NCBI RefSeq assembly: GCF_030406725.1
Contig: NZ_CP129107.1
Coordinates: forward strand, 558,001-622,000
DNA length: 64,000 nucleotides
Origin: Alteriqipengyuania flavescens
GTDB taxonomy: Bacteria > Pseudomonadota > Alphaproteobacteria > Sphingomonadales > Sphingomonadaceae
Direction of reading: 5' to 3'
The first letter of the stretch is position 1. Each line of letters opens with the position of its first letter. Position numbers and translations under genes: made by a program. The notes under the pieces were generated by a model. That model was not told the origin of the DNA. It ran no database searches and worked only from the letters and a program-made list of their open reading frames with translations. This document shows, in pieces, positions 808 through 2,429 of this stretch.

Positions 808-1132
808 ATGGCGCAACGCCGCGCCGCCTTGGTGCGAGCGATGGACGGCGTCGCGCGCGGCGAGCGTGACTCGCTGAAAGTCGTATATGACGCCACCAGC
901 GCGAAACTGTTCGGCATCGTCTTGCGCCACTTGCGCGACCGCCGAAGGCAATGCCGCGCTGCGTCGGTGCATGGATGAACTGAAGCCGGATCATCGCCGC
1001 TGTATCCGCCTCGCCTTCTTCGACGGCTTGACCCACTCGCAGCTCGCCGAACGCCTCGGCATGCCGCTGGGCACGATGAAGAGCTGGATTCGCCGCGGGC
1101 TTCTTGGGCTGAAAGGGTGTCTCGGTGGCTGA
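808..1132 (+). pseudogene. ECF sigma factor gene with large internal deletion and frameshift
   Basis: From ATG 808 the frame encodes the N-terminal start of an ECF sigma factor (about 45 residues, through LFGIVLRHLRDRR) and then runs into a stop at 976-978. A second frame picks up from about base 948 with LRRCMDEL and continues through LAFFDGLTHSQLAERLGMP and GTMKSWIRRGLLGLK, the region 4 helix-turn-helix, to the stop at 1132. Everything between, normally most of region 2 (-10 recognition and core binding) and the linker, roughly 80-90 codons, is missing and the two halves are out of frame. The gene overlaps the anti-sigma gene start by 8 bases, as intact pairs of this type do. It should not make a working sigma factor. 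Confidence 0.8.
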
Positions 1133-1886
1133 CGACCTGGCCGCCCTCTCACCCGAAGACGAACGCTTCGTCCGCGCGGGCGAATTGTCGCTCGGCGTCT
1201 TCGAGGGCGAGGAACTGGCTGCGGCCAGACGCGACCAGTTGGCCGATCCGGATTTCGCTGCTGCCGTCACCTGGTGGGCCAATCGTCTGGGCACGATGGC
1301 GGAACAAGCTGCTGCGATGTCGCCTGGCGCAGGCGTCTGGCGAGCGATCGAGCAGCGTCTCGATGCGCGCCGATCGGGCTACACTCCAGTCAGCATGTCG
1401 GAGACGTCTTCGTCACGGACGGCTGGCTGGAGCGTGGCGCTTGCCGTAGGCGGCGCAGGCCTGGCCGCCGCTGCGCTTGCCCTGTTCCTCGCTACGCCGC
1501 GACCAGCTGCTGTCGGCCCTGCCGTGGAGCCGACGCAAAGCCGGCGCGGACCGCAGCTCGTCGCGCAGCTCAGCGACGAGAGCGGTTCCCTCGGCATCGC
1601 CAGCGTCATCGACCCGTCGGCAGAGCGGCTGGCGCTCAAGATCCGCGGCTTCGAGCCGGGGCCTGAACAATCGCCTGAATTGTGGGTCGTCCCCGAAGGC
1701 GGCGCGCCGGTCTCTCTCGGCCTGATCCCGGCAAGCGGCGAGTTCGAGCGCGATCTCTCTGCCGAAGAGCACGCCTTGCTGGTCGAAGGTGCAACGCTCG
1801 CCGTGACCATCGAGCAACGCGGCGGGGCGCCCCATGATGCGCCGTCGCCCCCGATCCTCGTTGCCGGACCGCTCGACCAGGTCTGA
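1125..1886 (+). CDS. RskA-family anti-sigma factor
   Basis: A 253-residue protein starting at GTG 1125, inside the end of the sigma-factor remnant. The N-terminal ~90 residues are the cytoplasmic anti-sigma region, a single membrane segment lies at about 102-123 (WSVALAVGGAGLAAAALALF), and the rest is the periplasmic RskA (anti-sigma-K) domain, with motifs such as ELWVVPEGGAPVSLGLI. The family holds an ECF sigma factor at the membrane. Here the partner gene is broken, so the protein may be an orphan or control another sigma factor. The reading frame itself is intact. Confidence 0.85.
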   Translation: MADDLAALSPEDERFVRAGELSLGVFEGEELAAARRDQLADPDFAAAVTWWANRLGTMAEQAAAMSPGAGVWRAIEQRLDARRSGYTPVSMSETSSSRTAGWSVALAVGGAGLAAAALALFLATPRPAAVGPAVEPTQSRRGPQLVAQLSDESGSLGIASVIDPSAERLALKIRGFEPGPEQSPELWVVPEGGAPVSLGLIPASGEFERDLSAEEHALLVEGATLAVTIEQRGGAPHDAPSPPILVAGPLDQV

Positions 1887-2132
1887 TATTTTCCGCAGCA
1901 ATTCAAAAGGCTGCGACTTCCACGCAAATTCTTTCCCGTTCCGCGGCATCCAGTCGGCAGATCCTGCGTAGCTGCTTGCGTCATCCGCTGGATGGCAAGC
2001 CGTTGATGGGCGATCGTGGCGAGACGACAGGGTAATGGACCGGGTGCAACCCGGCGCCGCCCTCTCCAAAGCCGGACGGGAATGATCGACGATTACCGGC
2101 TTCTGATCCGCATTTTCGGAAGAGGGAAGAAT

Positions 2133-2429
2133 ATGTCGAATTTCAACACACGTTTCGCCGCAGCCCTGCTAGTCGACACCGCCTCGCTCGGCTTCGCCAC
2201 CACAGCCGGCGCAGAGGAAATCGATGGCGACGGCGGTTATGAGTGCGTCCTCAACAACGACACGGCGATGTCCAACACCACCGCCACCGCTACGGCCCAC
2301 GGCGAAGACGCGCTGGCCTGCGGCGAAGACGCCCGGGTCGGCGACAACGCCTCGGTTTCGGCCGGCGTCGGTGTCGGTTTCAACAGCGGCGAAGTCGGCG
2401 CTCGCGGCGGCTTCCAGGTCGCCTGGTAA
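2133..2429 (+). CDS. small secreted protein, function unknown
   Basis: A 98-residue protein from ATG 2133, preceded by an AGAGGGAAG ribosome site. Residues 1 to about 27 look like a signal peptide ending at AGA-EE. The mature part is Ala/Gly/Asp/Thr-rich with short degenerate repeats (GEDALACGEDARVGDNASV) and two cysteines, and it ends in an aromatic residue. The repeats faintly recall head repeats of trimeric autotransporters, but the protein is far too short for that family and no function is claimed. It is followed by a strong terminator. Confidence 0.55.
   Translation: MSNFNTRFAAALLVDTASLGFATTAGAEEIDGDGGYECVLNNDTAMSNTTATATAHGEDALACGEDARVGDNASVSAGVGVGFNSGEVGARGGFQVAW

Follow-up and report, generated by a model that had tools for sequence, protein, structure and literature searches.

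A SigK/RskA-type sigma/anti-sigma cassette with an adjacent YadA-type adhesin gene, probably inactivated recently in Alteriqipengyuania flavescens

In the genome of A. flavescens an RskA-type anti-sigma gene lies intact between the remnant of an ECF sigma gene and the stub of a YadA-type adhesin gene, and we consider it highly probable that the three are a regulator-target cassette that was recently inactivated. They are found in the window, by which we mean the whole stretch of 64,000 nucleotides analysed, i.e. bases 558001-622000 of a single-contig genome of 2,719,067 bases (completeness 100). In relatives, a membrane-bound RskA-type anti-sigma factor would bind and hold a SigK-like ECF sigma factor, which would in turn recognise GCATCC-N16-CGTAGC and transcribe the adjacent gene for a YadA-type adhesin; the gene order and the motif are observed, and the regulation is proposed. 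In the window, the sigma factor would be left without the part that binds the core polymerase and the -10 element, the adhesin would retain hardly any of its head and only about half of its anchor, and the cassette appears to have lost its function. The anti-sigma factor has lost its cognate partner, and the youth of the decay is probably the sole reason why its frame has stayed whole. The features are as follows.

808..978, + strand: remaining N-terminal piece of the ECF sigma gene, covering the start of region 2, with ATG at 808 and 46 sigma-like residues to about 943
943..945, + strand: sigma deletion point, about 75 codons (about 224 bp) gone between RDR and EGN
944..1132, + strand: sigma region 4 remnant, in an open frame of 887-1132 that is sigma-like from GAA at 944
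1125..1886, + strand: RskA-type anti-sigma gene, whole (253 aa), whose start overlaps the region 4 stop
1946..1972, + strand: promoter-like motif GCATCC-N15-CGTAGC, lying after the anti-sigma gene and ahead of the adhesin stub (genome position 559946)
2133..2429, + strand: YadA-type adhesin stub, 98 aa, made of a leader and the beginning of the head, fused in frame to roughly the final 31 anchor residues
2333..2334, + strand: approximate adhesin deletion point, 386 residues fewer than in the related locus L074, in frame

Genomic setting and comparison loci

A search with the anti-sigma factor against 397 genomes of the family gave matches in 40 of them at E <= 1e-25, the own genome counted; the genus sample consisted of the own genome only. 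Two sets of loci were used for comparison. The first comprises 49 other loci, one of which (L006) is unassessable owing to a contig end, and from it the 22 nearest orthologues were taken for the conservation counts, the remaining 27 being left out. The second comprises 32 named loci at which a related anti-sigma gene occurs, from Erythrobacteraceae and other sphingomonads, which were retrieved with alignment A1; a scan of the named genomes using the window anti-sigma sequence alone gave zero relatives. Since several genomes are common to both sets, the two are not independent. The best-scoring anti-sigma orthologue is 55% identical to that of the window, and no orthologue exceeds 56%.

Among the 22 nearest loci, L074 is flanked on either side by the genes that also flank the cassette in the window. 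Identity between the two is 80% for the CinA-like gene on the left (so labelled from its MoCF and FLAD1_M Pfam matches), and 85% and 81% for rplA and rplK on the right, which were identified as L1 and L11 by Pfam. In L074 both the sigma and the adhesin genes are whole. In the window the damage is confined to the cassette, the flanking genes being whole. Between the adhesin stub and rplA, at 2529-2564, there is also a perfect inverted repeat of 16 bp with a gap of 4 bases, possibly a terminator.

The sigma gene is a remnant

The N-terminal piece of the sigma gene runs out of frame after its 46 residues and ends at a stop at 976-978. No Pfam match at E <= 1 was obtained for 808-978, so that a sigma region 2 is not recognised in it, whereas the orthologue at L039 matches Sigma70_r2 with 66.1 bits. 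The second piece matches Sigma70_r4_2 with 53.1 bits (cut-off 25.7). By alignment with the 22 orthologues, the missing block measures 75-79 residues (75 in 14 of them) and covers regions 2.2-2.4 and the linker, the part of a sigma factor that binds the core polymerase and the -10 element. A deletion of about 224 bp is 2 mod 3 and hence shifts the frame, and since regions 2.2-2.4 and the linker are absent, the whole sigma factor is not recoverable by any frameshift.

These results largely bear out a sequence-only reading of the locus, which had proposed that 80-90 codons covering region 2 and the linker were lost near base 948 with a shift of frame. The loss is real and region 4 does read in another frame than the N-terminal piece, the junction (about 944) being right within a few bases; the size was slightly too high, and the start of region 2 remains. 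The same reading had described region 4 and the RskA-type anti-sigma gene as well preserved, which is confirmed, and had called for a comparison with relatives carrying the full gene. In that comparison a single open sigma frame matching through regions 2-4 was present in 48 of the 49 other loci, the exception being L006, which is cut by the contig end, and the sigma gene was whole in 32/32 named loci, whose genomes are partly shared with the first set. The truncated arrangement is thus seen in the window only, among all assessable related loci. No second copy of the missing block was found in the genome, where a threshold of E <= 0.001 left three region 2 matches, whose open frames measure 672, 331 and 236 codons.

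We also considered a possible repeat-mediated origin of the sigma deletion. A search for a long direct repeat at the junction found none, and orthologue DNA permits just a few shared bases.

For the likeness to SigK we used the whole sigma factor of L039. Its best match among solved chains is M. tuberculosis SigK (4nqw, E 3.2e-28), and its cysteines align with positions 150 and 200 of chain 4nqw_A, which we take to be C133 and C183 of SigK, assuming a 17-residue tag. The SigK model of NCBIfam is its top match at 165.3 bits, below the cut-off of 226, which suggests that sigma factors of the L039 type are SigK-like without being filed as SigK. Both SigK-type region 4 cysteines are retained in the window fragment. 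According to excerpts of PMC7509140, C133 and C183 are conserved in 94% of ECF18 and in 56% of ECF19.

The anti-sigma gene is intact

The anti-sigma frame matches RskA_C with 71.3 bits (cut-off 29.4), which places it with the RskA type. The NCBIfam anti-sigma model NF052375 gives 56.8 bits, below its cut-off of 100, and the anti-sigma profile had zero matches to solved structures at E <= 0.1. Class I anti-sigma domains bind region 4 through their helices 1-3, as stated in excerpts of PMC7406223. By analogy, a free region 4 fragment, if made (for example from ATG 971), could possibly bind the anti-sigma factor of the window, as the sequence-only reading had suggested.

The adhesin gene is broken as well

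The gene downstream of the anti-sigma gene, which the first reading had missed, is also broken. Its counterpart is an adhesin frame of 417-1142 codons in 18 of the 22 nearest loci, as against 98 residues in the window; an adhesin is absent after the anti-sigma gene in the other four (L026, L027, L028 and L003). The two orthologues tested, L074 and L079, each contain 9 YadA_head stretches and a YadA_anchor, and in both respects resemble YadA-type trimeric autotransporter adhesins (type Vc). Unlike these, the window stub has neither head repeats nor a whole anchor. Its product consists of a leader and a head start, GEDALACGEDA, followed directly by RVGDNASVSAGVGVGF...QVAW, about the last 31 anchor residues. 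No YadA_head match was found in the stub by Pfam. The anchor match of Pfam is longer (52 stub residues on YadA_anchor positions 10-60 of 60, 28.6 bits, cut-off 22.7), but in direct alignment only about the last 31 residues pair with the orthologous anchors, and the stub part before RVGDNA lines up with the beginning of the L074 head. Each YadA monomer contributes four strands to the barrel, of which the stub would presumably retain about two. In the leader, as judged by eye, the window carries aspartate at a position that is glycine or serine in the orthologues, except for alanine in L071; the rows of L064, L067 and L079 do not cover this position.

Two more frames with a YadA anchor were observed elsewhere in the own genome, at 305786-305959 (793 codons) and 666931-667101 (352 codons). 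Our pattern searches gave no exact copies of the promoter-like motif near either of them.

It is very unlikely that an error of assembly or sequencing removed these segments from an organism that in fact carries the whole cassette. The head repeats of an adhesin are, as a matter of general knowledge, a place where assemblies collapse. The genome is however a complete single contig with completeness 100, and the error would have to have made two separate large gaps in one cassette while leaving the genes on either side whole. Furthermore, the sigma junction is without a long direct repeat, and on its right the adhesin gap ends within the anchor, outside the head repeats.

Age of the decay and the state of the fragments

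The sequence-only reading had offered recent decay as one of two explanations, and conservation supports it. Taking near-invariant residues from the 22 nearest orthologues, the window keeps 31/31 in the sigma pieces and 38/40 in the anti-sigma factor, where the two exceptions are substitutions of Leu by Phe and of Leu by Ile. When each orthologue was left out in turn, it was found to have lost 0-7 of the sigma columns and 0-12 of the anti-sigma columns, the window being no worse. The identity of the sigma pieces averages 2.9 points under that predicted from the anti-sigma factor, and 2/22 orthologues are lower. If the sigma pieces have been neutral since the deletion, finding no change in the 31 conserved codons gives a 95% bound of about 0.046 substitutions per site. 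We infer from this that the decay is recent; as the own genome is the sole member of the genus compared, the word draws solely on conservation, and continued selection on the fragments would give the same conservation. The adhesin stub is in frame, with a start, a leader-like N-terminus and a stop, which speaks against decay.

The same conserved residues could be read as those of working fragments, with a region 4 peptide made by re-initiation at ATG 971 that occupies or tunes the anti-sigma factor and a mini-adhesin that serves as a small envelope protein. Besides the retention of all 31 sigma residues and of both SigK-type cysteines, the position of ATG 971 just ahead of the stop at 976-978, which resembles translational coupling, and the region 4 binding of class I anti-sigma domains would suit this explanation. 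We nevertheless regard it as very improbable, given that there is no Shine-Dalgarno-like run near ATG 971, that no second locus with this arrangement occurs among the 49-locus and 32-locus sets, and that the adhesin is broken too. Similarly doubtful, in our estimate, is the idea that a partnerless RskA-type anti-sigma factor and a free region 4 peptide are kept on purpose, working together at the membrane as a sensor or sink that has no sigma factor, once the adhesin target had been given up.

The other explanation in the sequence-only reading was that the anti-sigma factor now serves another sigma factor. Its frame is indeed whole and conserved, and the genome was searched for possible partners. 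Of the three frames matching region 2, those of 672 and 331 codons are, by their length only, presumed to be RpoD and RpoH. The frame of 236 codons contains regions 2 and 4 and adjoins a NepR gene (Pfam NepR 53.7 bits), and is therefore read as EcfG, NepR being the usual partner of EcfG-like sigma factors. It is the only other ECF-type sigma found in this complete genome. As for region 4, apart from this frame and the sigma remnant of the window, the match at L053 is a GerE/LuxR-type protein, and by eye L054 and L056 are LuxR-like frames and L055 a PhyR-like frame. At the sensitivity used, the genome thus appears to hold no free ECF partner for the anti-sigma factor; since the one further ECF sigma found is already paired with a NepR, service to another sigma has little support and is extremely unlikely.

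The intact cassette and a change of its target

Judged by sequence and gene order, the cassette in its intact form is a variant of an established one, mpt83-sigK-rskA, which excerpts of PMC7509140 place in Mycobacterium and Yersinia (SigK/RskA; ECF18/ECF19). The two share a SigK-like sigma factor, two aligned region 4 cysteines, a neighbouring RskA_C anti-sigma factor and an adjacent gene for a surface protein. They differ in that a YadA-type adhesin lies downstream in twenty named loci, and in that both the sigma factor and the target are truncated in the window. MPT83 itself is a fasciclin protein.

In 10 of the 32 named loci (L132-L141, from Sphingomonas, Sphingobium and Novosphingobium) the pair is followed by a fasciclin frame, for example at 4267-4833 of L132; the identity was tested by Pfam on L134. 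It is this form that resembles the mpt83-sigK-rskA cassette as presented in the excerpts of PMC7509140. A YadA-type adhesin follows the pair in 20/32 (L117 is cut by a contig end), mostly Erythrobacteraceae, with L115 (Novosphingobium marinum), L117 and L129 not so placed, and neither target follows in 2/32. Searching the 22 nearest ten-kb loci turned up no fasciclin frame.

We built a tree of the sigma factors from the 32 named loci, leaving the window out. The adhesin label required 2 changes on it (mean of 9.8 when shuffled; 0/500 shuffles as low). The 20 adhesin loci together with Croceicoccus mobilis formed one branch (support 98/97), and the fasciclin locus L137, on a long branch, fell outside the other nine. 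Comparison with the relatives suggests that the SigK/RskA-type pair exchanged a fasciclin protein for a YadA-type adhesin as its surface target.

The value of the comparison lies in this apparent swap of target; the broken copy itself is ordinary genome decay. Among the literature matches listed, no title or abstract start describes a sigma/anti-sigma cassette linked to YadA, and we make no claim of its absence from print. A decay of SigK/RskA is reported for Nocardia, where, according to excerpts of PMC7509140, rskA is truncated and mpt83 deleted. There, as in the window, the same kind of cassette degenerates and the target is lost; in Nocardia it is the anti-sigma factor that is truncated and the sigma factor that stays, and the window is the reverse. 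The observations offer a testable regulon and a hypothesis linking signal to adhesion for marine Erythrobacteraceae, in which the window lineage would be a natural loss-of-function lineage.

The promoter-like motif

The motif upstream of the adhesin stub has perfect hexamers and scores 12/12, with a spacer of N15. At the equivalent place, 19 of the 22 nearest loci (the 18 adhesin loci and L003) have a site scoring 10-12/12, with a spacer of 16 in all 19; L026, L027 and L028 score 9-10 with spacers of 19, 16 and 15, which is background-like. In 1150 shuffles a score of 10 arose 94 times, 11 arose 12 times and 12 never. Since a score of 10 is common in shuffles, the sites of L034, L038 and L042, which score 10, rest on their position and spacing. 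At L003/L084 a perfect motif was seen just after the anti-sigma gene, yet no adhesin frame and no fasciclin frame lies behind it.

A regular expression found sites in 25/32 named loci (24 with N16, one with N17), and the three named adhesin loci where it gave no match have scores of 10, 11 and 10, all with N16. In eight of the ten fasciclin loci the fasciclin gene lies behind a GCATCC-N16/17-CGTA site, so that the motif before both kinds of target is closely similar. We propose that it is used by the SigK-like sigma factor.

A stricter pattern, allowing N15 or N16, was run over 23 chosen genomes. It gave 22 sites in 16/23 genomes, as against 5 for the reversed pattern: 12 at the cassette position (window included), 7 before DUF4331 genes and 3 others. 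The DUF4331-linked sites are those of L092, L094, L097, L099, L100, L106 and L107 (motif 1500 bases from one end), and the motif precedes a DUF4331 gene in 7/23 genomes. A DUF4331 match is found in 12/23 genomes and none in the own genome. The motif makes the DUF4331 gene a probable second target for ECF factors of this group. At L100 the spacer is 15, and since the window hexamers are perfect, the N15 spacer would be a weak lesion; one base shorter than in relatives, it may or may not affect the window site.

Two further matches in the own genome were taken as chance: one at 1427840 (spacer 14), for a pattern whose reversed form matched 6 times, and one at 925543 (spacer 15), which lies inside a long open frame, the reversed pattern giving 0 in the own genome. 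Autoregulation of the sigma gene was likewise rejected, as the best upstream motif scores 8-10/12, the same as shuffles of the downstream regions; L039, with an upstream score of 10 and a spacer of 16, is the sole suggestive case.
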